DNA of 38,961 nt. It comes from a virus. Both the position numbers and the translations under genes were made by a program. The notes beneath the pieces were generated by a model, which made no database searches, was not told where the DNA came from, and saw only the letters and a program-made list of their open reading frames with translations. The first letter of the stretch is position 1; each line of letters opens with the position of its first letter. Of this stretch, positions 13,648 through 30,070 are shown one piece after another. The DNA is taken from positions 1 to 38,961 of the IMG/VR virus record IMGVR_UViG_3300025327_000086. The stretch is one strand, 5' to 3'.

Positions 13648-15215
13648 CGCCCCTCGTCTCCGTCTCCCTCCTCTGCCTCAACCGCCTGGACCTGACGCGG
13701 CGCTGCGTCGAGTCGCTTGTCGCCCACACGCCCGGGCCCTGGGAGCTGCATATCACGGACAACGGTTCGACGGACGGGACGGGGGACTACCTGCGGGCGC
13801 TGGCGGCGGAACGCGCCGCCGTTCGGCTGACGACCCACGGCGCCAACCGGGGGTTCATCGCCCCCCACAACGCCCAGGCCGCCGCCGCCGCCGGGCAGTG
13901 GCTCTGCGTCCTGAACAACGACACCGAGGTCGGCCCCGGCTGGCTCGACGCCCTCTTGGCGCCCTTCCGGGCCGACCCGCTCGTCGGGCAGGTCGGGCCG
14001 GCCGACCCCTACGGCGCGCTCACGGCGGACTTCCTCGGGGTGCCCTGCGCCCCCGGCGCCGCGCCCGAGTACCTCAGCGGGCATTGCTTCGTCGTCCCCC
14101 GCCGCCTCGGCCAACTCCACGGCCTGTTCGACGAGGCGTCCCTCGCCTGGGCCACCTGCGAGGACGCCGACCTCTCCCTCCGCCTCCGCCGGGCCGGCTA
14201 CAAGATCGTCCGTGTGCCCGACGCCCCGGTCCGGCACCTCGGGCGCGCCACGATGGACGGGCCGGACCGCCACCTGCTCGGCTACGACCCGGCCGAGAAC
14301 GAGCTGCGCAACCGGGCGGCCATGCGGGCGCGCTGGGCCGGCTACCTGCGGGACCGCGCCTTCGGCCGCTGGCGGGTCCTGGTGCGCCGGGGCTCGGCCT
14401 TCGGGGACGTGCTCTGCGTCGAGCCCATCCTCCGGGGCCTCCGGGAGAAGTACCCCGCGGCGCACATCACGATGCTGACCACGCCGGGCTACCTGCCGGG
14501 CATCGCGCACAGCCCGGCGGCCGACCGCTTCACGACCGACACGGGGTTCCTGCGGCGGCGGGGGGAGTTCGACGAGGTCATCGACCTCGACGACGCCTAC
14601 GAGCGGGAGCCCCGGACCCACCTGGTGGCCGCCTACGCCCGGGCCGCCGGCGTCCTCCCGGACCGCCCGCGCTGGCACCTGGACGAGCAGGGCCGGCAGA
14701 TGGCCGCCTCGCTCGCGGACGGCCCGCCGCTCTGCGTCGTCTCGTCCGACGGCGGCTGGCCCATCCGGACGTGGCCGCTGGACCGCCTCCGGGAGGTCGC
14801 CCGGCGGCTGGAGGCGCGCTTCCGCGTGGTGGAGGTCGGGGGGGCCACGCGGGTCGGCGTCGGCCGGAGCCTCTGCGGCCGGACGACGCTCCAGCAGCTC
14901 GCGGGCGTCTACAGCCGGGCGCGCCTGGCCGTCCTCTGCGATTCCCTCCATGTCCATCTCGCCGCCTGCTTCGCGGTCCCGACCGTCGGGGTCTGGGGCG
15001 GGACGGACCCGGCCCTGCGGGTGCACGGCCCGGAGCACACGGCGGTGCGCCGCGAGGGCTTCCCCTGCCTCGCCTGCCACCACGACCGCCCGGCGCCGCG
15101 CCACCACAGCGACTGCGACCGGGGGGCCTTCCGGGGCCTGGCGGTCGGCGACTGCGCCTGCCTGGACGTGCCCGTCGAGGCCGTCTGGGCGGCCGTCGAG
15201 AAGGCGGCCGGCTGA
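13644..15215 (+). CDS. GT2-GT9 bifunctional glycosyltransferase
   Basis: A 523-residue fusion. Residues 1 to about 235 are a GT-A/GT2 domain: VSVSLLCLNRLDLTRRCVES, ITDNGSTDGT, and the metal-binding LNNDTE near 91. From about 245 a GT9 (ADP-heptose transferase-like) domain begins with RRGSAFGDVLCVEPIL and ends with LAVLCDSLHVHLAACF and VPTVGVWGGTDP, the usual nucleotide-sugar site. A C-terminal Cys-rich patch follows. GT9 enzymes mainly act on lipopolysaccharide core. The two activities may add successive sugars to one acceptor, on the virion or the host surface. Confidence 0.8.
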   Translation: MTPLVSVSLLCLNRLDLTRRCVESLVAHTPGPWELHITDNGSTDGTGDYLRALAAERAAVRLTTHGANRGFIAPHNAQAAAAAGQWLCVLNNDTEVGPGWLDALLAPFRADPLVGQVGPADPYGALTADFLGVPCAPGAAPEYLSGHCFVVPRRLGQLHGLFDEASLAWATCEDADLSLRLRRAGYKIVRVPDAPVRHLGRATMDGPDRHLLGYDPAENELRNRAAMRARWAGYLRDRAFGRWRVLVRRGSAFGDVLCVEPILRGLREKYPAAHITMLTTPGYLPGIAHSPAADRFTTDTGFLRRRGEFDEVIDLDDAYEREPRTHLVAAYARAAGVLPDRPRWHLDEQGRQMAASLADGPPLCVVSSDGGWPIRTWPLDRLREVARRLEARFRVVEVGGATRVGVGRSLCGRTTLQQLAGVYSRARLAVLCDSLHVHLAACFAVPTVGVWGGTDPALRVHGPEHTAVRREGFPCLACHHDRPAPRHHSDCDRGAFRGLAVGDCACLDVPVEAVWAAVEKAAG

Positions 15216-15877
15216 TGGCCGTCAACACGTCCGAGCGGGTGGTCTTTCACCTTGGCGACCTCTTGGAGCCGATGGAAGACCGCACGAAACGGGAGCACCT
15301 CGACCGCTATCGGCTAGCCGCCTGGCGGCTCCCGCACGGGGCGCGGGCCCTCGATGTGGGCTGCGGCTGCGGCTACGGCGCGTACCTGCTCGCCACTCAG
15401 GGGCGCGCAGGCTACGTGCTGGCGCTCGACCACGACGAGGAGTCCATCAATTACGCCCGCACGCACTTCCGGCACCCCGCGATTGTCTTCCAGTGGCTCG
15501 ACGCAGGCCAGATCATCGAGGACGCGCCGCTCGGCGAGCCCTACGACGCCGTGATCGCCTTCGAGGTCCTCGAGCACGTGGCCGACCCGGAGCGGCTGGT
15601 CCGCGTCTGCGCCGAGAACCTGCTCCCCCGCGGCGTCCTGTTCGCGTCGTCACCCGTCGTGCCCACGACGCAGGACAACCCCTGGCATAAGCGCGACTTC
15701 ACGCCCCGCGCCTTCCGCGCCCTCATCCGGACGCGCTTCGTCATCCACGAGACGCTCCTCCAGAACGAATCGATCCTCATGGTCTCGGCGTTCCGCCAAG
15801 GGGGCGGGGTGCCCGGGACGCTGTGGCCGGACGCGGAGCCGGCGGAAACTGAGCATGGGCCCCCCGTACAGCTCTGA
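15215..15877 (+). CDS. class I SAM-dependent methyltransferase, 220 aa
   Basis: Motif I is LDVGCGCGYG near residues 46-55, motif II LALDHD, and YDAVIAFEVLEHV is the methyltransferase-11/23 signature. SASxPVVPTTQDNPWHKRDF-like text follows as in sugar or lipid O-methyltransferases. ATG 15215 shares its A with the previous stop. In this cluster it most likely methylates a sugar. Confidence 0.8.
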   Translation: MAVNTSERVVFHLGDLLEPMEDRTKREHLDRYRLAAWRLPHGARALDVGCGCGYGAYLLATQGRAGYVLALDHDEESINYARTHFRHPAIVFQWLDAGQIIEDAPLGEPYDAVIAFEVLEHVADPERLVRVCAENLLPRGVLFASSPVVPTTQDNPWHKRDFTPRAFRALIRTRFVIHETLLQNESILMVSAFRQGGGVPGTLWPDAEPAETEHGPPVQL

Positions 15878-17378
15878 GACCGCAAAGTGCCGCGCCCGGC
15901 TCCTCCCGTTCTGCCGGGGGTACGGCGCCGACCTCGGGTGCGGGACGATAGAGAAGATTAGGCCCGAGGCCGTCGGCGTGGATGCGCGCCCGGGCTTGGC
16001 GCGGCACGTGGGCCCGATCGAGGCCCTGCCCTTCTTCCGCGACGGGTCCCTCGATTACGTCTATTCCTCCCACGCCCTGGAGCACCTGCCGTTCCCCGAG
16101 GCCGCGCTCGCCGAGTGGATGCGGACGCTCCGCCGGGGCGGCCGCCTCGTGCTCTACCTGCCGCACAAGGACCTCTACCGGCAGTACAACCCGGAGCACC
16201 ACTGGAACCCGACGCCGGAGACGGCGAGGGGCGCGGTCCTCCGGGCCGCCGCGCGGCTCCAGCGCACGCCCTTCTTTGCTTACGAGTACTTGGATGACGG
16301 GCCGGACCGCTACTCGTTCGACTTGGTCGCGCAGATGGACTACCCGCCGCCGCCCGGCCCGCCCCGGGTCGCCGTCTTCCCCACCGGCGTGGACGGCTGC
16401 GCCTACGTGCGGGCCCGCTGGCCGCCCGAGTGGGCCGCCGAGGGCGGCCATGCCGAGGTGCGCGTTCATGAGGCGGGCGCGGTCGCCGATTGGGATTGGC
16501 CCGAGATCTGCGTCTTCCAGCGCACCCGCGACCCTATAGCCGGGCTCGCGGCCTGGCGGCGGGCCGCCGGGGCGGGCAAGGCCCGCGTGTATGACACGGA
16601 CGACGACGTGTTCCGCCACCCCGACGTGCTGGGGAGACCCTACTACGCTCTGGATGAACTGGCGGCCATGCGGGCGATGGTGGCCGAGGCCGACTTGGTG
16701 ACTTGCTCGACGCCGGGGGTCGCGGAGGCCATGCGGCCGCTGAACGCGCGGATAGACGTGGTCCCGAACGGCCTCCCGCCCGCGTGGTTCGACGCGCCAG
16801 TCCGGCGTCCCCCCGGCGGCATCCGCATCGGCTTCGTCGCGGCCCCGGCGCACGACGAGGACTTCCGCCTCGCGGCCCCCGCCGTCTGGTCCATCCTGCG
16901 CCGCCACCCCGGCGTGTCCATGGTCTTCCAGGGCCACCGGCCGGCCATCCCGCTAGACGGGATCCCGGCCGCCCAGATCGTCGAGAGCACATGGGTGAGT
17001 TTCCCGGATCTCGCCGCCGTCCTGGCCCGGCTGGGCCTCGATATCGTCCTAGCGCCGTGGGCCGACACGCCGTTCAACCGGGGCAAGAGCCTCGGGAAGT
17101 GGCTCGACGGGGCCTGGCTGGGCGCCGCCGTGGTCGCCACCCCGCTCAGCGACTACGCGGGGTTGCGGCACGGGGAGACGGCGCTGCTCGCCGGCACCCC
17201 CGGGGAGTGGGAGGCCGCCATCGAGGCGCTGGTCTCGGACCCGGATCTGCGGCGGCGGGTCGCCGCGGCCGCGCGCGCCGAGGCGCGGGAGCGGTACGCG
17301 GGCGACGTGCTGGCGCCCCGGTGGGCCGACGCCTGGTGGTCGGCCGCCGCCGGGCGCCGAGAGGGGAGGGGGGTATGA
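15855..17378 (+). CDS. methyltransferase-GT4-like glycosyltransferase fusion
   Basis: A 507-residue two-domain protein. Residues 20-150 are a degenerate class I methyltransferase (ADLGCGTIEKI, GSLDYVYSSHALEHL, LRRGGRLVLYLP). From about 170 a GT-B domain follows: VYDTDDDVF, ADLVTCSTPGVAEAM, IDVVPNGLP, IRIGFVAAPAHD and NRGKSLGKWLDGAWLGAAVVATP, as in GT4/CgeB-like enzymes. It overlaps the upstream methyltransferase by 23 bases. Probably builds and modifies the same glycan. Confidence 0.75.
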   Translation: MGPPYSSETAKCRARLLPFCRGYGADLGCGTIEKIRPEAVGVDARPGLARHVGPIEALPFFRDGSLDYVYSSHALEHLPFPEAALAEWMRTLRRGGRLVLYLPHKDLYRQYNPEHHWNPTPETARGAVLRAAARLQRTPFFAYEYLDDGPDRYSFDLVAQMDYPPPPGPPRVAVFPTGVDGCAYVRARWPPEWAAEGGHAEVRVHEAGAVADWDWPEICVFQRTRDPIAGLAAWRRAAGAGKARVYDTDDDVFRHPDVLGRPYYALDELAAMRAMVAEADLVTCSTPGVAEAMRPLNARIDVVPNGLPPAWFDAPVRRPPGGIRIGFVAAPAHDEDFRLAAPAVWSILRRHPGVSMVFQGHRPAIPLDGIPAAQIVESTWVSFPDLAAVLARLGLDIVLAPWADTPFNRGKSLGKWLDGAWLGAAVVATPLSDYAGLRHGETALLAGTPGEWEAAIEALVSDPDLRRRVAAAARAEARERYAGDVLAPRWADAWWSAAAGRREGRGV

Positions 17379-18244: not shown

Positions 18245-18371
18245 TCGGTTTCTCCGCCCCTATCCGACCCTTCCTGACGCGCCGCGCTCAAGGCGCTTGA
18301 CTTCCGCGCCCGGTGAGGTAAGAGGGAGACGGCACGCTCGGCCGGACGGCCGCCGTGCCCTCCCTTCCCGG

Positions 18372-18399
18372 GGCCGGGGGTCGGCGGCGGCCCCCGGCC
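18372..18399 (+). terminator. second hairpin before the portal gene
   Basis: GGCCGGGGG and CCCCCGGCC form a 9-bp stem with a 10-base loop, followed by a pyrimidine run TCTTTCCCTTCC. It lies 21 bases before the portal ATG. The 270-base gap 18150-18419 holds only the promoter and these two hairpins. Terminator, leader structure or attenuator cannot be told apart. Confidence 0.35.
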
Positions 18400-18419
18400 T
18401 CTTTCCCTTCCGGGGGGCG

Positions 18420-19985
18420 ATGGCGCTCAAGGATACCCTCCGCTCCATCATGGACCGCCTCTTCCCGCCCGCGCCGGACCCGGCGCGGACGACGGAGTCC
18501 CTCCCCCCCGCGTCGCCCTACGGACCGCCCGCGCTCGCCCGCTACGTCGAGGACCGGACCCGCCTGGAGCAGACCCGCGCCGCGCGGTATAACGATTTCG
18601 AGCGCATCGACGAGGAGATGCCGGAGGCCGCCGCGGCGCTGAGCATCTTCGCGGATAACGCCGCCTACGCCGACCGCGAGCCGTCCGAGACGTTCGCCTT
18701 CGAGACGGAGGACGAGCGCCTGAAGGAGACGCTGGAGGAGATCGCGGCGCGCGTGGGCGCCCGCGAGAACGTCTGGACCCTCGCCCGCGACGTGACGAAG
18801 TACGGCGAGGAGTTCCAAGAACTGATCTTCGACCAGGGCAAGGACTTGGTGCGCGTCAAGTCCCTCGACCGCTTCCAGACCTTCCGGGCCGAGGACCCCT
18901 ACGGGCGCCTCCCGGCCAAGGGCGCCTTCTGGCAGGGCCGGGCCGAGGCGGACAAGCCCGAGGTGGAGTTCGAGGACTGGCAGGTCGTGCACTACCGCCT
19001 CCGCCGCACGGCCCGCTCGCGCTACGGCACCTCGCTCCTGCACTCCGCCCGCAAGACGTTCCGCCGGCTCGACATGATGGAGGACGGCCTCGTCTTCACC
19101 CGCCTCACGCGCGCCGTGCAGCGGACCGCCTTCCTCGTGGACACCGGCGGCCTGCGCGGCCCCGAGGCGGCGGCGCACCTCGAGCGGGTGCGCGACGCCT
19201 TCAAGAAGCGCCGGTACATCGACACGCGCACCGGCCAGCTCGCCGTGCAGGACAACCCGGCCCTCGCCGAGGACGACATCTGGCTGCCGCAGGGCGAGGG
19301 GGCGAAGTCGGACGCGAAGGTCCTCCAGGGCGACTCCAACCTCGGGAAGATCGAGGACATCGAGTACTTCCGCAACAAGTTCTTCGCGGCCCTCGTCGTC
19401 CCGAAGGCCTACCTCGGGCTGGAGCAGGACACGCGGGCGCGCGCGGTCATGACCGAGCTGGACGTGCAGTTCGCCCGCTCCGTGCGCCGCATCCAGAAGG
19501 CGCTGGCGGCCGGCGACAAGGAGAAGTTCGACCGCGCCCTGGCCGCCAAGGGCGTCACGGGGGCCGACTACCGGGTCGTCTACCCGCCCATCTCCACCAT
19601 CGACGAGCTGCGCGAGTGGGGGGTGGAGCGGCTCAAGGCGGAGATCGCCAAGATCTGGGGCAAGGACATCAACGAGGTCTCGGCGGCGTTCCTGCTCCGC
19701 AAGTACCTCGGCCTGACGGACGAGGAGATCGCCCAGATGGGCCTGGAGCCGAAGCCCGCGGCCCCGTTCAGCTTCGGGGCCTTCGGGGGCGGCGCGCCGC
19801 CGCCCGCCGGGGAGGAGGCCTACGCGCAGGCGCGCCTGGCCAGCGCGCTGGAGACGCTGCGGGAGCTGGCCGACTGGGAGGCCGATGGCGAGCGGTGGGC
19901 GCGCGCCGCGGAGCCGCCGCGCCGCGGCCGCCGCCTCTTCGTCCCGGTGTCCGGGAACGGGGCCGCCGCGGACGGGGCGGGATGA
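18420..19985 (+). CDS. portal protein, T4 gp20-like
   Basis: A 521-residue portal of the T4 gp20 type, the 12-fold ring through which DNA enters the head. Diagnostic stretches are RLTRAVQRTAFLVDTG, AFKKRRYIDTRTG, DDIWLPQGEGAKSDAKVLQG, and NLGKIEDIEYFRNKFFAAL ending in VPKAYLG. Length is close to T4 gp20. The C-terminal 80 residues are a low-complexity tail. First gene of the late operon. No large terminase gene lies near, which is unusual. Confidence 0.88.
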   Translation: MALKDTLRSIMDRLFPPAPDPARTTESLPPASPYGPPALARYVEDRTRLEQTRAARYNDFERIDEEMPEAAAALSIFADNAAYADREPSETFAFETEDERLKETLEEIAARVGARENVWTLARDVTKYGEEFQELIFDQGKDLVRVKSLDRFQTFRAEDPYGRLPAKGAFWQGRAEADKPEVEFEDWQVVHYRLRRTARSRYGTSLLHSARKTFRRLDMMEDGLVFTRLTRAVQRTAFLVDTGGLRGPEAAAHLERVRDAFKKRRYIDTRTGQLAVQDNPALAEDDIWLPQGEGAKSDAKVLQGDSNLGKIEDIEYFRNKFFAALVVPKAYLGLEQDTRARAVMTELDVQFARSVRRIQKALAAGDKEKFDRALAAKGVTGADYRVVYPPISTIDELREWGVERLKAEIAKIWGKDINEVSAAFLLRKYLGLTDEEIAQMGLEPKPAAPFSFGAFGGGAPPPAGEEAYAQARLASALETLRELADWEADGERWARAAEPPRRGRRLFVPVSGNGAAADGAG

Positions 19986-20704: not shown

Positions 20705-21050
20705 GGCCGGCGGGCTCGGTCGCCGCCTCAAGTGGGCGGCCTCCACGGCCGGGGCCGTCGGAGCCATCATAGCCGCCGGCTTCTCCTTCGACGGCCGCTA
20801 CGCCAAGGCCGAGGACGTGCGCCAGCAGATCGGCGGGGTCAAGGTACTCTACCTCCACAGCGAGCGGCGCGCCCTGGAGCGCCAGCGGTTCGAGCTGCAG
20901 GTGGAGGCGCGCCGCCGCCGCCTGACGGACATGGAGGTCGGCCGCCTGGCGGAGATCGAGCGCGAGCTGCGGCAGGTGGAGCGGCAGATCCGAGTGCTGG
21001 AGGGCCCGCCGCCCGCTGCGCCGCGGCGCCCCTCGGGGGGCTCCCCGTGA
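20697..21050 (+). CDS. membrane protein with long coiled coil, 117 aa
   Basis: GTG 20697 is chosen; TTG 20691 is an alternative. A short hydrophobic segment (WAASTAGAVGAIIAAGFSF) is followed by a charged helix of about 50 residues (RRRLTDMEVGRLAEIERELR) and a Pro-rich end. One anchor plus coiled coil resembles an i-spanin, but no partner was found and the position next to head genes is odd. Function unknown. Confidence 0.55.
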   Translation: MSEAGGLGRRLKWAASTAGAVGAIIAAGFSFDGRYAKAEDVRQQIGGVKVLYLHSERRALERQRFELQVEARRRRLTDMEVGRLAEIERELRQVERQIRVLEGPPPAAPRRPSGGSP

Positions 21051-23596
21051 CGCCGGCGCTCGCCGAGGCCATCGACCGGGCCCTGCCCCTGCTGGCCGAG
21101 GGCAAGAGCTACGGCTCGCGCCGCTCGCGCTCCGCCGTCCGCGCCGCCCTCAACGCCGCCGAGCGCGCCCTGCGCCCCGAGGTCTCCCGCTCCGCCGTCC
21201 GCGAGGCCGAGGCCGCCTACGCCGAGCTGAAGTCGGGCTTCGAGGACGCGCTCCAGGGCCTCCTCGGCGCCTACGAGGCCGAGGACGTGACGAAGGCGGA
21301 GTTCAGGCGCCGCATGCAGGAGGCGATCCGCGACCACTACGAGGCCGCGTACCGCGTGGGCCTGCGGCGCGCCGGGGGCGGCCCGCCCGTGGGGAGCCTG
21401 GCGCTGGAGGCCGAGGACCTGGCCTGGCTCAAGGGGGCGGCGAAGGAGGAGGGCGGGTACGCCCGCGCCTTCATCGACGCGGTGGAGGACGGCACGTCGC
21501 GGATGGACCCGGCGCGGCGGATGCAGATGTACGTGGACACGCTCGACGGCATCTACCGCCACGGGCAGGTGGACGCCTACGACGAGACGACGCAGATCGT
21601 ATGGGCGCTCGGGGTCGCGGAGCACTGCCGGACGTGCATCACCTTCGCCGCCGGGAGCCCGTATACGAAGGCGACGTTGCCGGCCACGCCGGGCGACGGC
21701 ACCAGTGAATGCAAGTGCATCACGACCCCGTGGAGCCGAGTATTGACGGACAAGGGGTGGATTCCCATCGGCCTGGTCGAACCCGGGGCGCTCGTGTGGA
21801 CGCATCGGCAGAGGTGGCGCCGGGTGACCGCAAGAATCGTGCGCCCGTCCGGCCCGGAGCACCGGCAAGCGTTCGTCCGCTCCCCGTCCGGGGAGTTCGT
21901 CGGATGCACCGCCGACCATTGGTGGCTGACATCCGATGGGTGGAAAGACACAGAGAGCATTGAAAAATATCGCTTGCAGATATATAGTATTGCCCATGCC
22001 GAAAGTTTGCATTCGCTGCTCAGGTGTGATGCGGTCACACAGGAAATCCGATCTTTGCCGGTCGTGCGCGAGTGTCTGCCATTGCGGGACGCCAAAGCAC
22101 TGGATATCCGCACAATGTCTATCGTGCGCGATGCGACGCAAAGCTCTGGTTCAATGGGGTTCGCCGCGCACAGAGGATGTGAGTCGGCCGAGGAAGTTTG
22201 CGGATCTTCAAGAGGGACATTTCCGCAATGCACGCAAGGACGGGCGCTATTGCGCGATCTTCTGGACGGAGGATGGCAGGGAACGGATAAGTTTTCGCTC
22301 GATTTGGCGATGGCAGAACATGAACGGTCCGGCTCCGCGTGGTTGTCAAATCCATCATATCAATGGCGATCCGACAGACGACCGGATAGAAAACCTATCG
22401 CTCATGACCATCGGGGACCATCGGCGACATCATTCTTCTGGGTCAATGAATCCCAGGTGGAAAGGTGGGCCGACGCAGCGAACATGCGCCCATTGCCGCA
22501 TGGAGTTCAGAACTTATTGGACGCGGAAATTCTGCTCAATGAGATGCTTCCGCCTAGCACGCCGCTCTACGATCTCTCCATCGAAGACGACCACTCCTTC
22601 GTAATTGAAGGCCTCGTCTCACATAATAGTAACTGCCGCTGCCGCCTGATTTTCCGCCCCGGCCAAGTCGAGCCCGAGGCCGAGGAGGCCGTCCGGGGCG
22701 GCCCCCCGCGCGAGGACCTCCCGCCCAAGGGCTTCCGCCGCCCCACCGAGCAGGAGCGGGCGTTCATCGAGAACCTGACGGCGCGCATCACGTTCTCGCG
22801 CGAGCTTACCGACCAGCTCGCGGGGCCGCAGCGGCGGGCCGAGATCCTGGCGCGCCAGCAGATGGCCGACCGCCTCGTGCGCTTCCTGGAGGAGCGCAAG
22901 ATCTGGCAGCGGCCGACGTGGGCCGCCGGCAACCGGGCGCACGGGCAGGCGGTGGACCGGGGCGCGCTGGAGGAGGTCCTCAAGGGGCGCGACCTGACGG
23001 GCGAGCAGCTCCGGCGCCTGCGGCGGGCGAGCCGGGGGGACTTCGACGACGTGCTCGACCGCTTCGAGGCGGCCGTGGCGGCGCGGCGCGCGGCCGTCAA
23101 GGTGGCGGCGGGCGACCGGGCGGCGGCCGACGAGATCGAGCGGGCGGCCAACATCGTCCTGGCCTCGGCGCTGACAGGGCCCGTCTCGGAGGCGGGCGAG
23201 CCCGAGCCGCCGGACGCGGAGACGGCGAGGGAGCTGGGCCGCCCGCAGCTGCGGCGGCCCAAGGCGCCCCCGCGGGAGCGCCCCGTCAAGCCCGTGAAGG
23301 ACCTCAGCGCGGCCAAGTTCCGTGTCGGCCAGCGGTTCCGCATCGGCAAGAGCCCGTTCGTGTGGAAGATCGTGGCCGTGGCCGTCTCCGCCGGGGCCGT
23401 CTCCTACGCCCTGGAGGACCCGGAGAACCCAGAGCGGGGGCGGGGGGCGACGCAGGCGGAGCTGGAGCGGGCGGAGGAGGTGACGCTCCAAGAGGCCCTG
23501 GCAAACCGTTTGCCAGTCCGGGAGTTGGTGGAGTACCTGGCGGCGTCCCGTGCCCGAGCGCGCCCAGAAGCAGCCCCAACCCCAGCGGCGGGCTGA
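21047..23596 (+). CDS. Mu gpF-like head morphogenesis protein, intein-containing
   Basis: An 849-residue precursor. The extein (about 545 residues) is a Mu gpF-like minor capsid protein: a helical N-terminus, then AEHCRTCITFAAGSPYTKA, PGDGTSEC and, after the intein, SNCRCRL, the Cys-rich signature of the family. An intein interrupts that signature at residues 224-527. The C-terminal half is charged and helical and ends in a small beta domain (FRIGKSPFVWKIVAVAVS). Such proteins join the portal region inside the head and are sometimes ejected. Splicing is likely needed for function, as the insertion splits the conserved Cys cluster. Confidence 0.85.
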   Translation: MTPALAEAIDRALPLLAEGKSYGSRRSRSAVRAALNAAERALRPEVSRSAVREAEAAYAELKSGFEDALQGLLGAYEAEDVTKAEFRRRMQEAIRDHYEAAYRVGLRRAGGGPPVGSLALEAEDLAWLKGAAKEEGGYARAFIDAVEDGTSRMDPARRMQMYVDTLDGIYRHGQVDAYDETTQIVWALGVAEHCRTCITFAAGSPYTKATLPATPGDGTSECKCITTPWSRVLTDKGWIPIGLVEPGALVWTHRQRWRRVTARIVRPSGPEHRQAFVRSPSGEFVGCTADHWWLTSDGWKDTESIEKYRLQIYSIAHAESLHSLLRCDAVTQEIRSLPVVRECLPLRDAKALDIRTMSIVRDATQSSGSMGFAAHRGCESAEEVCGSSRGTFPQCTQGRALLRDLLDGGWQGTDKFSLDLAMAEHERSGSAWLSNPSYQWRSDRRPDRKPIAHDHRGPSATSFFWVNESQVERWADAANMRPLPHGVQNLLDAEILLNEMLPPSTPLYDLSIEDDHSFVIEGLVSHNSNCRCRLIFRPGQVEPEAEEAVRGGPPREDLPPKGFRRPTEQERAFIENLTARITFSRELTDQLAGPQRRAEILARQQMADRLVRFLEERKIWQRPTWAAGNRAHGQAVDRGALEEVLKGRDLTGEQLRRLRRASRGDFDDVLDRFEAAVAARRAAVKVAAGDRAAADEIERAANIVLASALTGPVSEAGEPEPPDAETARELGRPQLRRPKAPPRERPVKPVKDLSAAKFRVGQRFRIGKSPFVWKIVAVAVSAGAVSYALEDPENPERGRGATQAELERAEEVTLQEALANRLPVRELVEYLAASRARARPEAAPTPAAG
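21716..22627 (+). other. intein in the gpF-like protein (304 aa)
   Basis: Starts with Cys (TGC 21716) in CITTPWSRVLTDKGWIPI, typical of intein block A. Block B is GCTADHWWLTSDGW with the conserved His. Block F is PLYDLSIEDDHSFVIEG and block G is LVSHN, followed by Ser as +1 residue. All splicing residues seem present. Between the blocks, about 21990-22530, the intein frame is open but encodes nothing recognisable, while another frame encodes an HNH protein. The middle is AT-richer than the host gene. Confidence 0.85.
21996..22604 (+). CDS. HNH homing endonuclease nested out of frame in the intein
   Basis: A 202-residue ORF in the +1 frame relative to the intein. Cys pairs at 5/8, 21/24, 28/30 and 41/44 look like zinc ribbons. 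The HNH core is CQIHHINGDPTDDRIENLSL with H120/H121, N133 and a His at 142-146. A C-terminal knuckle (CAHC...FCSMRC, C164-C184) follows. The last 15 or so residues read intein block F out of frame. ATG 21996 has no clear ribosome site. It may be expressed alone, by frameshifting, or be in frame in an error-free sequence. Confidence 0.75.
   Translation: MPKVCIRCSGVMRSHRKSDLCRSCASVCHCGTPKHWISAQCLSCAMRRKALVQWGSPRTEDVSRPRKFADLQEGHFRNARKDGRYCAIFWTEDGRERISFRSIWRWQNMNGPAPRGCQIHHINGDPTDDRIENLSLMTIGDHRRHHSSGSMNPRWKGGPTQRTCAHCRMEFRTYWTRKFCSMRCFRLARRSTISPSKTTTPS
23500..23514. repeat. exact palindrome GGCAAACCGTTTGCC
   Basis: The best copy: symmetry extends to 9-bp arms, CTGGCAAACCGTTTGCCAG (23498-23516). 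It lies near the 3' end of the gpF-like gene, about 35 bases before the Pup start. Confidence 0.85.
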
Positions 23597-23750
23597 GGAG
23601 CCCGCCCCGTCCGCAGCGCCCAAGGGCCAGGGCCGCCCCGACGCCAAGCGCCTGCGGGACCGGATGGACGCGGTGATCGAGGAGATCGACAAGGTGGTGG
23701 AGGAGAACCAGGGCCTGGCCGAATCGTTCGTCCAGCAGGGCGGGGAATAG
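23550..23750 (+). CDS. pup: Pup-like prokaryotic ubiquitin-like protein, 66 aa
   Basis: GTG 23550 overlaps the gpF-like gene by 47 bases. The protein has the Pup layout: a disordered Gln/Pro/Glu-rich half (residues 1-32), then a helix and the tail. The segment IEEIDKVVEENQ parallels mycobacterial Pup LDEIDDVLEENA as I remember it, and the end FVQQGGE parallels YVQKGGQ, with one residue fewer between. A terminal Glu means it could be ligated by PafA without deamidation by Dop. Neither enzyme nor proteasome genes are in the window, so it would have to use host ones. Virion or decoy roles are also possible. Confidence 0.82.
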   Translation: MPERAQKQPQPQRRAEEPAPSAAPKGQGRPDAKRLRDRMDAVIEEIDKVVEENQGLAESFVQQGGE

Positions 23751-24029
23751 ATGCCGGTGCTGGTGCTCCGCTCCGTGGACGATTCTGCGAACCTCCGCGT
23801 GATGCGCGCCGTCCTGGAGGCCCTCCGCGCCCGCGACTACGGCCGCCTCCGCGTCGGGCCGTTCGACGACGGCCTGGCCGCCGAGATCGGCGTGTTCGTG
23901 GAGGGGCCCAAGGGCGCGCTGGAGCGGCTGCGGCCCGACCTCGACCGGCGCCTGGCCCGGGCCGTCGTCCCGGCCCTGATAGAGCAACTGGAGATCATGG
24001 AGACACGCGCGGAGGGGGCCGGCCTATGA
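23751..24029 (+). CDS. hypothetical protein, 92 aa
   Basis: ATG 23751 follows the Pup stop with no gap. Alpha/beta look: VLVLRSVDDSANLRVMRAVL, then DGLAAEIGVFVEGPKG, then a C-terminal helix. The stop overlaps the next ATG. It is the immediate partner of Pup in the operon, but no family was recognised. Confidence 0.55.
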   Translation: MPVLVLRSVDDSANLRVMRAVLEALRARDYGRLRVGPFDDGLAAEIGVFVEGPKGALERLRPDLDRRLARAVVPALIEQLEIMETRAEGAGL

Positions 24030-24373
24030 GCGGGGAGGGGCGGGACGAGGCCCGCGCCGGCTTGCGGGAGGCCATCGCGGAGGCCCTGCGCGGCGGGGGG
24101 GCCAAGGCCGTCGTCGAGGCGGGCCTCCAGGCCGCCGGCCCGGTCGTCGAGCGCCTGTCGCCGCGGCAGCTCCGCCTGCTCTTCGCCCGGGGCGTCTTCC
24201 GGGCCGCCCGCCAGGCCGGGGCTTCGGTCGTCCGCTCCGGCGGCGGGCTGGCCGGGGCGCGGCGGGCCCAGACGGGCGCCCTCGTCCGGCGCCAGGCGGG
24301 CCTCCAGAGGTTCGCGGCCGCCCGGTCCTCCCGGGACGTGCGGATCGCCCGGCGCTTCGGGGTGGCGCGGTGA
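24026..24373 (+). CDS. LSxxQLR-motif family protein 1, 115 aa
   Basis: ATGA overlap with the previous gene. Contains VVEAGLQAAGPVVERLSPRQ and then LRLLFARGVFRAARQA, which aligns well with the next gene and, over the LSxxQLRxLFA part, with the kinase-like gene after it. The C-terminus is rich in Arg and Gly. Probably a tandem duplicate. The shared motif may be a docking or packaging signal; function unknown. Confidence 0.6.
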   Translation: MSGEGRDEARAGLREAIAEALRGGGAKAVVEAGLQAAGPVVERLSPRQLRLLFARGVFRAARQAGASVVRSGGGLAGARRAQTGALVRRQAGLQRFAAARSSRDVRIARRFGVAR

Positions 24374-24783
24374 GCCTAGCGGCGGCCATCCAAGATGTCC
24401 TCGCAGGCACCGGGAGCCTCCGCTGCGTCGTGGAGGCCGGGTTGGCATCCTCCCACCCGGTGGTCGAGCGCCTCTCGACTCGTCAGCTCCGCTACCTGTT
24501 CGCCATCGGGGCGATCCGGGCGGGGCGGCAGGCGGCTCATGGCCTGGCGCTGGGGCCAGCCCGGCGCGAGGCCATCCGGGGTGCCGTGGCGGGCCAACTC
24601 CGCAAGGTGCGCGCCGTGCGGCCGGATGTCTTCCGGCGCCTGCGGGACTACTATGCCGTATCCGTCGGGGACTTCGGCGCGACCGGCCTGGCGGGGACGC
24701 GCACGCCATTGCGGGTGGCCCGCCAAACGGCCCGTCAGCAGGCGCGCAAGCAGGGCCTGCGCTTCTTGGCCGTCCAGGCATAG
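24370..24783 (+). CDS. LSxxQLR-motif family protein 2, 137 aa
   Basis: GTG 24370 overlaps the previous stop. Residues 20-55 (VVEAGLASSHPVVERLSTRQ, LRYLFAIGAIRAGRQA) match the preceding protein closely. The C-terminal half is different: RKVRAVRPDVFRRLRDYYAV and a basic end. A paralogue of protein 1 after tandem duplication. Confidence 0.6.
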   Translation: MSLAAAIQDVLAGTGSLRCVVEAGLASSHPVVERLSTRQLRYLFAIGAIRAGRQAAHGLALGPARREAIRGAVAGQLRKVRAVRPDVFRRLRDYYAVSVGDFGATGLAGTRTPLRVARQTARQQARKQGLRFLAVQA

Positions 24784-24792
24784 GAGACGGCC

Positions 24793-25857
24793 GTGGCGAA
24801 CGCCCTCCGCCAGCTCCGCGACGACCTGCTCCGGCTCCTCGACGGGGTGGAGGAGGAGGCCCGCCCCGACCCCCTGCGGGCCGTGCTCGACGAGGAGATG
24901 AGCGTGCGGCAGCTCGTGCGGCAGATGGCGGAGGACGGCCGCCTAGACGAGGCCGGGCGCCTCTCCCAAAAGCAGCTCCGCTTCTTGTTCGCCATCGGGG
25001 CGATCCGGGGCCAGACCGTTCCGAGGGTCGGCGCGGTGCGGGGGCCGAAGGAGCGTGCGATCGTCAAAGACCGCCCGGTGATCGCCGCCGGGCAGGCCCC
25101 GAAGGCCAAGAAGCCGGACAGCCTGGAGACGAGCCCGGTCACGGGCAGGAAGAGCCTCGGCGGCGGCGTCAACACGACGGAGATCGTCACCCTCCAGGAC
25201 GGCAGCAAGGCCGTCTGGAAGCCCACGGCCGGCGAGAGCCCCGGGCTGCGGCCCGGCCTGGTCCCGGACGGCACGCAGTACCGGAGAGAGGCGGCGGCCT
25301 ACGCCTTGGCGAAAGGGATCGGCATGGAGGACATGGTCCCGAAGACCTTCGCCCGGACGGTGGGGAGCCAGGCCGGCTCGATCCAGGAGTTTGTCGGCGA
25401 CGCGGAGGTGGCGAAGGCGGTCCAGTCTCAGGACCGCTACGACGGCCCGCGCGACCTGGCCCGCGCGGCGGTCTTCGACTACGTCATCGGGAACACGGAC
25501 CGGCACGCCGGGAACTGGATGGTGACGTCCGGCGGGCGGCTGAAACTCATCGACAACGGGCTGGCGTTCCCCGTGAAGAACCCGTTCGCGGAGTGGGGGA
25601 ACTTCCGGATCCTCCGCGAGGCCGACGAGCGGGCCGACGTGTGGGGCCGGCCGATCTCGAAGCTGGAGCGGCCGAGCGCCCTCTCGCCGTTCGACGAGGC
25701 CCGCCGCGCCCTGGTCGGCAAGTGGCCGGCGGTCCGGCGCTCCCTCAAGGCCGCCGGGCTGGAGGACGAGGCCATCCGCGGCGTCGCGGGCCGCTGGCGG
25801 GCCATCACGAAGCCGAATATCCGCCGGCTCCGGGACTTGACGGGGGACCTCCCGTGA
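24793..25857 (+). CDS. PI3K/HipA-like kinase with N-terminal LSxxQLR motif
   Basis: A 354-residue protein. The N-terminal 75 residues carry GRLSQKQLRFLFAIGAIRG, the motif shared with the two upstream genes. From about 115 a kinase-like core follows: GGGVNTTEIVTLQDGSKAVW then KP (ATP-binding strand and Lys), REAAAYALAKGIGM, IQEFVGD, FDYVIGNTDRHAGNWMV (catalytic loop with D and N), and LKLIDNGLAF (metal-binding Asp). The order fits the PI3K/HipA-like fold. Substrate unknown; a protein kinase acting on phage or host targets is plausible, and delivery within the head is a speculation. Confidence 0.7.
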   Translation: MANALRQLRDDLLRLLDGVEEEARPDPLRAVLDEEMSVRQLVRQMAEDGRLDEAGRLSQKQLRFLFAIGAIRGQTVPRVGAVRGPKERAIVKDRPVIAAGQAPKAKKPDSLETSPVTGRKSLGGGVNTTEIVTLQDGSKAVWKPTAGESPGLRPGLVPDGTQYRREAAAYALAKGIGMEDMVPKTFARTVGSQAGSIQEFVGDAEVAKAVQSQDRYDGPRDLARAAVFDYVIGNTDRHAGNWMVTSGGRLKLIDNGLAFPVKNPFAEWGNFRILREADERADVWGRPISKLERPSALSPFDEARRALVGKWPAVRRSLKAAGLEDEAIRGVAGRWRAITKPNIRRLRDLTGDLP

Positions 25858-27619: not shown

Positions 27620-28843
27620 ATGAGCACTAATGCTAGGGAGCCGATCCTCATCGAAGTAACCCGTGCGCCCGTAACCATCATTTCCGAGGGAAAAGATGGC
27701 GACGGGAGGATGCAGATAAAGGCGAGGCTCCTCGAAGCCGGGATCAAGAACAGAAACAACAGAGTTTATCCCGTCGAAATTGTTCAGAGGGAAGTAGGGA
27801 AGTTGCAAGAGCGCATCGCCGCTGGCGTGGCGTTCGGAAGTGGAGGGCATCCGCAAGACGGGATGACATCGTTCAACGATATCTCTCATGTGTGGCGAAA
27901 AATCTGGATGGAAGGTTCCCAGGTTTTCGGAGAAGCAACGGTACTCAATGCCGGGCGCGGGAAAGTGCTCCAAGAAGTCATTCGGGTGACCGGTTCTGTC
28001 CCAGTATCCGTAAGGGGATTCGGAACCTGCGCAAGGGGGCAATTCAACGGTGAACCAGCGGATATAGTCGAATCCTCGTACCAAATGGTTACCGCGGACG
28101 TAGTCCTGAACGATGCTGGTTTCGAGGACGCCAAGGTCCTGCAAGTCAAAGAGGACGCTGCGGCCAAGGAAGGAGGCGCACCGATGGACCTGAAGGAGCT
28201 GAAGGAGAAGCACCCCGACCTGGTGAAGGCGCTCGCCGACGAGGTGACCGCCAAGGTCAAGCCCGAGATCGAGGCGGCCCTCGCCAAGCAGTACGAGGAG
28301 AAGGTCCTCGCCAAGATCGGCGAGGAGAAGGACGCCATCCGCGAGGCGGTGGAGAAGGAGGTCGCCGAGAAGTTCCACGTCGCGGCCATGCTGGAGGCCC
28401 TGGAGGCCATCGCCGTGGCCGTGGCGCCGTTCGCGGGGCCCGAGGACGACAAGGACAAGGTCCCCGCCGCCGACGCGGCCCTCAAGGCGACCGTGGACCA
28501 TCTCCAAAAGGAGTTGAACAAGGTGGGGCAGGGCCTCAAGGAGGCGCAGGAGCGCGAGGCGAAGCTGCTGGCCGACCTGGAGGCCGCCAAGGTGCCGGCC
28601 TACATCGGCGAGAAGGTCAAGGCCGAGCAGGGCGCGGAGCTGCTCGCCGAGGAGCTGCGGGACTGCCGGAGCACGCAGCAGGTGGACGAGCGCCTGCCGG
28701 CGGCCAAGGCGAAGGTCAAGCGCCTGCTGGAGATGCTCCCCGCGCTGCCGGGCCGGGGCAAGGTGCACGAGGAGCGGCAGGACGACGACGGCCTCACCCC
28801 GCAGCAGCGGCGGGAGCGGCGGCTGGCCGGCGTCCGCGACTAG
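27620..28843 (+). CDS. prohead protease (T4 gp21-like) fused to scaffold
   Basis: A 407-residue fusion. Residues 30-170 are a prohead protease: NRNNRVYP, catalytic His in GGHPQDG (H77), HVWRKIWMEGSQVFGEATVL, and catalytic Ser in VPVSVRGFG (S130), as in gp21/HK97-like assembly proteases. From residue 189 a charged helical scaffold follows (KELKEKHPDLVKALADEV, LKEAQEREAKLLADLEA). The protease half is AT-richer, with different codon use, and the change falls near the join. The scaffold guides capsid assembly and is then cut away by the protease. Confidence 0.82.
   Translation: MSTNAREPILIEVTRAPVTIISEGKDGDGRMQIKARLLEAGIKNRNNRVYPVEIVQREVGKLQERIAAGVAFGSGGHPQDGMTSFNDISHVWRKIWMEGSQVFGEATVLNAGRGKVLQEVIRVTGSVPVSVRGFGTCARGQFNGEPADIVESSYQMVTADVVLNDAGFEDAKVLQVKEDAAAKEGGAPMDLKELKEKHPDLVKALADEVTAKVKPEIEAALAKQYEEKVLAKIGEEKDAIREAVEKEVAEKFHVAAMLEALEAIAVAVAPFAGPEDDKDKVPAADAALKATVDHLQKELNKVGQGLKEAQEREAKLLADLEAAKVPAYIGEKVKAEQGAELLAEELRDCRSTQQVDERLPAAKAKVKRLLEMLPALPGRGKVHEERQDDDGLTPQQRRERRLAGVRD
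28184..28843 (+). CDS. internal in-frame start: scaffold-only protein, 219 aa
   Basis: ATG 28184 has a perfect AAGGAGG at 28170-28176, seven bases upstream, inside the fused gene. It would yield the scaffold alone in excess over the protease-scaffold form, as lambda Nu3 is made from within gene C. The start coincides with the rise in GC content, suggesting the scaffold was once a separate gene. Confidence 0.65.
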   Translation: MDLKELKEKHPDLVKALADEVTAKVKPEIEAALAKQYEEKVLAKIGEEKDAIREAVEKEVAEKFHVAAMLEALEAIAVAVAPFAGPEDDKDKVPAADAALKATVDHLQKELNKVGQGLKEAQEREAKLLADLEAAKVPAYIGEKVKAEQGAELLAEELRDCRSTQQVDERLPAAKAKVKRLLEMLPALPGRGKVHEERQDDDGLTPQQRRERRLAGVRD

Positions 28844-28945: not shown

Positions 28946-30070
28946 ATGAAGCACGAGGGAGCGACCTGGCTCACCGAAGATGCCGCCCGAGAGCGGCGGT
29001 GGGCGCACATCATCAAGGGCAAGAAGATCGACCCCGCGGACCGCATCGAGCGCCCCGCGGTCCGGATGATCACCGAGACCCTCCTGGACAACATCGCGGC
29101 CCACCTGGTCAGGGAGGGGAAGCTCACCGAGGACCTCGTCACCACGTCCCTCGGCGACCCGTTCACGACGTTCGCCTTCCCGCTCGTCCGCCGGGTCTTC
29201 CCCCGGCTCCTCGCCAACGACCTCTTCAGCGTCCAGCCGATGAGCCGCTCCACGGGGAAGATCTTCTTCCTCGACACGGAGTACACCGGCGGCGGCAACC
29301 GGGATGACCCGGCCGTCTTCAACAAAGACTACGCGACCACGGGCGAGGGGGCGGCCGTCGCCGAGGTGAACTACCGCATCACCGACGTGACGGTCACGGC
29401 CGAGCGTAAGGCCCTCAAGGCCAAGTGGACCATCGAGGCCGAGCAGGACCTGCGCAGCGACCACGCGCTCAGCGCCGAGGCCGAGCTCATGGCGATCGTC
29501 GCCGACGAGCTGGTGCGGGAGATCGACCGCACGCTGATCGAGGACTGCCTGTCGCAGGTGCCCGTCGGCAACCAGTTCACCTTCTCCAAGACGGCCCCCA
29601 CGGGCACGCCCTACAGCAACCTCGACCCGAAAGTCTACCGCCGGCAGTTCTGGGAGAAGATCGTGGACGCCAACACGGCGGTCTTCAAGAAGCGGCACGT
29701 CAACGCGACGTGGATCCTCGCCGGGGCGGACGCGGCGGGCTACCTGGAGAAGCTCGACGAGTTCAGCCTGTCCCCGACCGTCAACCCGACGGAGTGGCAG
29801 GCCTTCACCGGGTCGCACTTCTTCGGGACGCTCGGCAACCGCTGGCTCGTCTTCAAGGACCCCTGGTTCAGCGCCGACAAGATGCTGCTGGGCTACCGGG
29901 GGCCGTCGTTCATGCACGCCGGGTACGTCTACGCGCCGTACATCCCCGTCTTCACCACCGCGCTGCTCCAGGACCCGCACGACATGACCAACCGGCGCGG
30001 GATGATGAGCCGGTACGCGCGGAAGATGGTGATCCCGGAGATGTACGCCTCGCTCGAGCTGACGGCCTAG
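28946..30070 (+). CDS. major capsid protein, T4 gp23-like
   Basis: A 374-residue capsid protein of the gp23 type (HK97 fold). FAFPLVRRVFPRLLANDLFS followed by VQPMSRSTGKIFFLD, VTAERKALKAKWTIEAEQDL and ADELVREIDRTLIEDC are the gp23-family blocks. It is shorter than T4 gp23 (about 520), consistent with loss of the insertion domain. GGAGGAGGG precedes the ATG. No obvious N-terminal protease site was identified. Confidence 0.88.
   Translation: MKHEGATWLTEDAARERRWAHIIKGKKIDPADRIERPAVRMITETLLDNIAAHLVREGKLTEDLVTTSLGDPFTTFAFPLVRRVFPRLLANDLFSVQPMSRSTGKIFFLDTEYTGGGNRDDPAVFNKDYATTGEGAAVAEVNYRITDVTVTAERKALKAKWTIEAEQDLRSDHALSAEAELMAIVADELVREIDRTLIEDCLSQVPVGNQFTFSKTAPTGTPYSNLDPKVYRRQFWEKIVDANTAVFKKRHVNATWILAGADAAGYLEKLDEFSLSPTVNPTEWQAFTGSHFFGTLGNRWLVFKDPWFSADKMLLGYRGPSFMHAGYVYAPYIPVFTTALLQDPHDMTNRRGMMSRYARKMVIPEMYASLELTA

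Follow-up and report, generated by a model that had tools for sequence, protein, structure and literature searches.

What a lone gene for prokaryotic ubiquitin-like protein (Pup) might do on a phage genome is the question raised by the IMG/VR virus record IMGVR_UViG_3300025327_000086, which was analysed over its whole length of 38,961 bases (hereafter the window; G+C 64-76% along its length). In some bacteria, Pup is a small tag that marks proteins for delivery to the proteasome. An initial annotation had proposed a Pup of 66 residues at positions 23550-23750, with an EEIDKVVEEN helix and an FVQQGGE end. The open reading frame (ORF) was found as described: it lies on the forward strand, begins with GTG and ends with TAG, and its product (MPER...FVQQGGE) has an N-terminal half rich in Pro, Gln and Ala and carries EEIDKVVEEN at residues 44-53. 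Judged from its sequence, the ORF is a genuine Pup of a T4-type tailed phage and a codon-typical gene in the head-gene region. The chances appear about even that such a phage Pup is attached by the host ligase PafA to proteins in the infected cell, which the proteasome then degrades.

The identification as Pup was borne out by profile searches. The Pup family PF05639 matched the window protein at 37.7 bits (E 4e-9; curated cut-off 27), from residue 6 to the last residue, 66, with positions 6-69 of the 69-position profile aligned. In phmmer, the sequences of six solved Pup chains also matched it (E 0.004-0.07). A profile of 39 other Pups from viral records (alignment A1, described below) scored the window Pup at 42.7 bits; the top of 20,000 full shuffles of the protein reached 10.3 bits, and when the last seven residues were left in place, the highest score among 20,000 shuffles was 20.5 bits. 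Over 16,699 ORFs from the collected loci and the window, the same profile gave 74 matches of at least 35 bits, all of them Pup ORFs including that of the window, and the next match scored 10.9 bits. The window contains the spaced Pup motif a single time, and none of 100 dinucleotide shuffles contains it. The G+C content by codon position (0.83/0.44/0.92) is like that of the next, 92-aa ORF (0.85/0.45/0.93) and of the portal gene (0.72/0.50/0.97), which supports Pup as a real gene in its frame. The ATG of the neighbouring gene, at 23751, abuts the Pup stop codon, and the first 47 bases of the Pup ORF overlap the 3' end of a 954-aa ORF; no strong ribosome-binding site was evident near the GTG on inspection of the sequence. 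A low-complexity N-terminus and a score below the cut-off of the NCBI model might suggest an unrelated coiled coil that ends in GGE by chance. This explanation is hardly credible in view of the PF05639 match, the shuffles that keep the tail and the gap in the ORF scan; a chance ORF or generic coiled coil was ruled out by the shuffles, the profile gap (35 versus 10.9 bits) and the codon periodicity. By its profile matches, the window protein is a divergent member of the Pup family.

Pups have been defined as proteins of 50-90 residues that have a two-helix core with an extended tail and a C-terminal G[EQ] for isopeptide ligation (pupylation survey of 2008, PMC2588565, in the passage on definition). 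The AlphaFold2 model of the window Pup shows a disordered arm followed by two helices, residues 32-52 and residues 54-62 (mean pLDDT 71, pTM 0.35), so that a two-helix core with an extended tail, in a protein of the expected size, can be assigned with moderate confidence; the chain finishes with GGE, directly before the stop codon. The protein thus resembles bacterial Pup (PF05639; PDB 3m91, 3m9d, 7px9) in length, in its disordered N-terminal arm, in a two-helix core with EIDxVxEEN and in its GG[EQ] end. In known Pups, the N-terminal arm threads into the pore of the ATPase Mpa (PMC8755798, in the part concerned with Mpa). Unlike the bacterial system, the window Pup lies on a phage record with no ligase, depupylase, ATPase or 20S gene in the window; it is also one residue shorter between the helices and falls below the NCBI equivalog cut-off.

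Pup genes recurred on viral records. Two DNA patterns were searched in IMG/VR: the helix pattern gave 24 loci, 23 with Pup, and the tail pattern gave 66 loci, 47 of them new, of which 46 had a Pup over the cut-off. In all, Pup was found on 69 IMG/VR contigs, which with Streptomyces phage Dagobah and the window make 71 records; it was over the cut-off in 25 of 26 and in 46 of 49 records searched. The 69 contigs total 2.63 Mb, 27 being of at least 40 kb, and several are copies of one phage. Most of the Pup records may be fragments, and a gene missing from the contig may still be present in the phage. Each pattern biases what it demands, and the fair test is therefore crosswise, on the tails of helix-found loci and the helices of tail-found loci. 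Among the helix-pattern loci, all 22 with a visible end finish with GG[EQ] (16 distinct sequences), which indicates that the ligation end is kept; 46 of the 47 new tail-pattern contigs score as Pup (one of them, L068, shows just 16 residues), which indicates that the helix is kept. The Pups of other viral contigs retain both features, in keeping with the initial annotation. Two matches were dropped, L009 (helix pattern; not Pup, no GG[EQ] end) and L056 (a pattern match but not Pup).

From 65 IMG/VR contigs, Dagobah and the window, 46 distinct Pup proteins were obtained, with starts chosen by a script; the truncated L003 and three loci without a visible start (L010, L043 and L068) count as Pup contigs by hidden Markov model but lie outside the 46. 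Alignment A1 comprises 40 of these proteins. All 40 match PF05639, no PHROG family was hit by any of them at E 0.001, and the columns that are conserved belong to the Pup helix and tail. The initial annotation had also pointed out that a Glu end could skip deamidation. This is a normal option, although not a special one: the 46 proteins end in GGE (27) or GGQ (19), and cellular Pups occur in both forms according to passages of a 2021 review (PMC8223512). The Pups of L062 and L063 differ solely in the last residue (GGQ versus GGE), a naturally occurring change in whether deamidation is needed.

The gene neighbourhoods of Pup are varied. Clustering of flanking ORFs, with 20 flanking proteins scanned, revealed settings with terminase (phrog_2) and portal; with terminase (phrog_9), portal and protease/major capsid protein (MCP); with UvsY and helicase on T4-like contigs; with ribonucleotide reductase (L014/L020); and with endolysin and primase-polymerase in Dagobah-like phages. 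A named phage function was assigned by PHROG to 14 of the 20 proteins (10/10 and 4/10 in two batches); the other six, which include a protein of the discarded record L092, had no PHROG match or a function unknown. The scan used one representative per cluster, and single contigs are not each proven to be phage. Taken as a whole, the set is not explained by host contamination, as none of the 71 records holds PafA/Dop and the flanks bear phage hallmarks; the cellular locus holds pup together with PafA/Dop, as a section of the review describes (PMC8223512).

These settings also bear on the idea of a structural role, in which this small protein of two helices takes part in head assembly, belongs to the virion or tags virion proteins. 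The window Pup lies between the portal and the protease/MCP genes, and in two other groups terminase and portal mostly follow within a few genes of Pup, as such a role might predict. However, the position varies (UvsY/helicase, ribonucleotide reductase, endolysin/primase-polymerase), and the conserved columns are the helix and tail, which known Pups probably use for PafA and Mpa (PMC8223512, in the passages on binding). A role in the virion is accordingly improbable.

The partners of Pup were consistently missing from the Pup-bearing records. The Pup_ligase family PF03136 (PafA/Dop) was found in none of the 73 records searched, a set in which 71 have Pup and which includes the window; the 20S proteasome family PF00227 was found in none of 26 records (window included) and none of 48 records, which together cover all 71. 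The window therefore has neither of the marks of a bacterial pup-proteasome locus, a nearby PF03136 gene and PF00227. As the initial annotation had stated, no ligase or proteasome gene was detected in the window, and family searches also gave no Mpa, the window being probably part of a larger genome. The ligase search itself works, as two PF03136 genes were detected on MT835496 (L092; MT835496.1, 'Bacteriophage sp.', human faeces, unverified). This record, considered as a second isolated Pup phage, was dropped: it has a bacterial-type locus in which two PF03136 genes of the dop/pafA type flank the Pup match and a split mpa-like ATPase is also present, and it looks like mislabelled bacterial DNA. 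Tag genes in many phage sequences without a ligase suggest that phages borrow the protein-disposal machine of the host, and the annotation's proposed reliance on host parts fits the absence of a ligase from all 71 records.

Some phages appear to bring the ATPase as well. TIGR03689 (proteasomal ATPase, cut-off 504.75) was exceeded on two T4-like IMG/VR contigs among the 71 Pup records, G034 (616.6 bits; represented by L036, L093 and L095) and G056 (586.3 bits; L058 and L094). The G034 protein aligns to residues 51-609 of 609 of mycobacterial Mpa, including the GQYL end, which docks Mpa into 20S (PMC8755798, in the part on docking); the same contig encodes T4-type MCP, scaffold, protease, portal, tail tube and tail sheath. 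Its likeness to mycobacterial Mpa/ARC thus begins at the coiled coil and extends up to GQYL, the difference being that it is phage-borne; the search of the window gave no Mpa. In a profile search of IMG/VR that used three phage Mpas, 12 contigs reached at least 45% identity, the three query contigs included; compared over the last 250 residues of the protein, they carry eight different genes (loci L098/L101, L102, L103, L104, L105-L108, L099/L109, L100, L110 and L111). All 12 end in G[QM]YL (8 GQYL, 4 GMYL), and none of these contigs has a Pup ligase. On L099, a terminase lies two genes downstream of Mpa. Weak TIGR03689 matches of 13-14 bits (G032, G036, G045 and G049) and Mpa-like ATPases below 45% identity without the GQYL end (L112-L119) were not counted.

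The favoured reading is that of a tag for the machinery of the host, whose ligation, degradation, targets and benefit we infer. Host PafA would join the phage Pup through its terminal Glu, with no need for deamidation, to lysines of host or phage proteins. The tagged proteins would be fed into the host 20S by Mpa, either that of the host or, in some phages, their own. The gain might be the removal of host defence or regulatory proteins, or the recycling of amino acids late in infection. A wider proposal, held with slightly less assurance and just short of an even chance, is that phages of proteasome-bearing bacteria recurrently supply their own Pup, their own Mpa (G[QM]YL) or both, and leave ligation and proteolysis to the host; the window would then encode a divergent tag of this kind, whose short junction shifts its preference for partner or substrate.

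The main competing explanation is a decoy, in which the phage Pup occupies PafA, Dop or Mpa, blocks pupylation and degradation by the host and protects phage proteins, while not itself working as a productive tag. Ligase, depupylase and Mpa all bind Pup (PMC8223512, in its sections on these partners), the phage Pups come without a ligase, the helix junction is altered in the window, L033, L067 and L070, and a GG[EQ] end would be expected in a competitor for PafA or Dop as well. A pure Mpa decoy would have no need of GG[EQ], yet this end is kept in all 22 helix-pattern Pups with a visible end; moreover, a phage that also brings a full Mpa, complete with the GQYL end for docking to 20S, looks equipped to promote degradation and not to block it. 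A decoy is unlikely on balance, but it is the alternative that deserves the most attention.

Several observations weigh against the tag reading. The window Pup scores 16.8 bits with TIGR03687 (NCBIfam, pupylate_cterm equivalog domain), below the cut-off of 41.45, and fails where about 38 of the 40 aligned viral-record Pups pass at E <= 2e-10, an approximate conversion of that bit cut-off. The usual spacing from EEN to the C-terminus is 17 residues (42 of the 46 distinct Pups), and the window Pup has 16, with one residue missing between the helices. Its exact spacing pattern was found on no other IMG/VR contig and on no contig of 84,980 genomes, in a search that also demands EEN and a canonical tail, so that looser variants would be missed, and for which no normal-spacing control was run on the genomes. 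With this unusual deletion and the failed NCBI model, the window Pup might have lost ligase binding; the term 'ligation-ready' used by the initial annotation is hence to be read as a plausible description. The host of the window phage might also lack PafA. Further, an Mpa over the cut-off accompanies Pup on just 2 of the 71 Pup records, and no Pup is present on 10 of the 12 Mpa contigs, many of which are short (it is present on G034 and G056). Finally, silent change does not clearly prevail in some pairs of Pups: across the final 32 codons, the silent (pS) and nonsynonymous (pN) values are 0.14 and 0.13 for Dagobah versus L065, and 0.25 and 0.21 for L059 versus L062; over the helix codons, they are 0.20 and 0.22 for L059 versus L062, and 0.37 and 0.30 for L030 versus L051.

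The helix junction need not be fixed in phages. The remaining three of the 46 Pups have lengthened junctions (EEN-to-end lengths of 18, 20 and 21 residues in L033, L067 and L070), which indicates that the junction varies. Pup bound to PafA or Dop has two helices at right angles, and Pup bound to Mpa a single longer one (PMC8223512, in its structural passages); the junction would thus be the place where the partners differ. The one-residue-short variant of the window may be adjusted to the PafA or Mpa of its own host. The residue before GG is Gln in the window Pup and Lys in 31 of the 46 viral-record Pups.

The low NCBI score, the deletion and the pairs without a silent excess could alternatively indicate a passenger, a host pup acquired by chance and roleless, of which the window copy is decaying. 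The frame is nevertheless open, codon-typical and abutting the next gene, with GGE intact, and Pup recurs in several unrelated phage gene settings. In the T4-like group L035/L036/L039/L071, found with the tail pattern only and testable over 20 helix codons outside the search pattern, pN was 0.04-0.14 and pS 0.16-0.78, with pN below pS in all six pairs; on these codons, the Pup of this group is under purifying selection. Over the last 32 codons, pN/pS was at most 0.34 in 15 of 17 chosen pairs, a ratio that leans low because the pattern codons are included. Little credence can thus be given to the passenger explanation.

Only one isolated phage with an annotated Pup was present in the phage collection, Streptomyces phage Dagobah, isolated on Streptomyces coelicolor M600. 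Further isolated phages may carry Pup: tBLASTn of the Pups L047 and L013 against the collection gave no match, though Dagobah was present, which makes these searches weak. Dagobah HUN42_00036 (MT711977, 'ubiquitin-like protein Pup') is, like the window Pup, a lone phage Pup ending in GGE, and ligase, 20S and Mpa were likewise not found in its genome. It differs in belonging to another phage, in its position after endolysin and before a small ORF and primase-polymerase, in its length (78 aa) and in its usual spacing to the end. G034 shares T4-type head genes with the window, and both G034 and G056 share a Pup without ligase or 20S; unlike the window, they have Pup between UvsY and helicase and encode a full Mpa with a GQYL end. 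The portal, protease and MCP of G034 are just 27-31% identical to those of the window.

Eukaryotic viruses are well known for hijacking the ubiquitin-proteasome system. No counterpart for Pup and the bacterial proteasome, and no description of a phage-encoded Pup or Mpa, turned up among the matches listed for the open-licence literature of PubMed Central. Term searches found nothing in PMC6802176 and PMC10202952, no mention of ubiquitin, Pup or proteasome in the main text of the Dagobah genome paper (PMC7650747), and no mention of phage or virus in the 2008 survey (PMC2588565); the sole bacteriophage passage seen in the 2021 review (PMC8223512) concerns Hfq. The Pup family is known and the Dagobah record already names Pup; the recurrence of Pup in phages without a ligase, some with Mpa, appears undescribed in the literature searched. 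These recurrent Pups, some with a phage Mpa, point to a bacterial counterpart of viral hijacking of the ubiquitin-proteasome system. Dagobah, as an isolated phage, makes such hijacking directly testable, and phage Pups and Mpas would offer natural variants as tools.

Table 1. Positions of Pup, its parts and the surrounding head genes in the window.
Feature	Position	Strand	Basis
pup, 66-aa phage Pup	23550..23750	+	PF05639 37.7 bits; 39-Pup profile 42.7 bits; codon periodicity
Disordered N-terminal arm, residues 1-31	23550..23642	+	AlphaFold2: no secondary structure, pLDDT 64-67
First helix, residues 32-52	23643..23705	+	AlphaFold2, pLDDT 86-88 (residues 31-50); conserved A1 columns
Shortened helix junction N-Q-G-L, residues 53-56	23706..23717	+	EEN-to-end 16 versus 17
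Second helix, residues 54-62	23709..23735	+	AlphaFold2, lower confidence, pLDDT 66 then 55
C-terminal Gly-Gly-Glu, presumed ligation end	23739..23747	+	Sequence; GG in 40/40 aligned Pups, an invariance biased by 26/40 rows that came only from the pattern requiring GG[EQ]
Portal protein	18297..19985	+	phrog_213, 167.6 bits
954-aa ORF with intein	20732..23596	+	TIGR01443 intein C-terminus, 20.6 > 15.6 bits
Head maturation protease	27620..28843	+	phrog_207, 120.9 bits
T4-type major head protein	28946..30070	+	phrog_138, 185.7 bits

The late head-gene context of a tailed phage proposed by the initial annotation was confirmed, with the portal gene upstream of Pup and the head maturation protease and T4-type major head protein genes downstream (Table 1). 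These T4-type genes suggest that the window is probably a fragment of a larger T4-type genome. The gene before Pup had been described as a gpF-like head gene; no family match upholds this, as the 954-aa ORF had no PHROG match and an intein C-terminal block alone passed the cut-off in the Pfam, NCBI and PHROG scans. Within it, in a different frame from the surrounding intein ORF, is an HNH_3 endonuclease ORF (21936-22604, 47.3 bits), in a stretch of reduced G+C and weak codon periodicity. The search for the same gene at this locus in related phages, which the annotation had advised, returned nothing usable. The window Pup protein alone found no relatives among viral or genome contigs, the portal search gave only distant relatives (27-32% identity), and for the MCP there were none in viral contigs by pattern and only T4-type relatives below 60% in the phage collection. 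No tRNA was found in the window. Past Pup, three successive ORFs (24026-25857) share by eye a motif like LSxxQLRxLFAxG, and the final one has a PI3/4-kinase-like domain (PF00454, 47 bits). Farther upstream, sugar epimerase, glycosyltransferase and methyltransferase genes lie clustered at positions 9336-17378 and may serve in glycosylation of the surface or of DNA.

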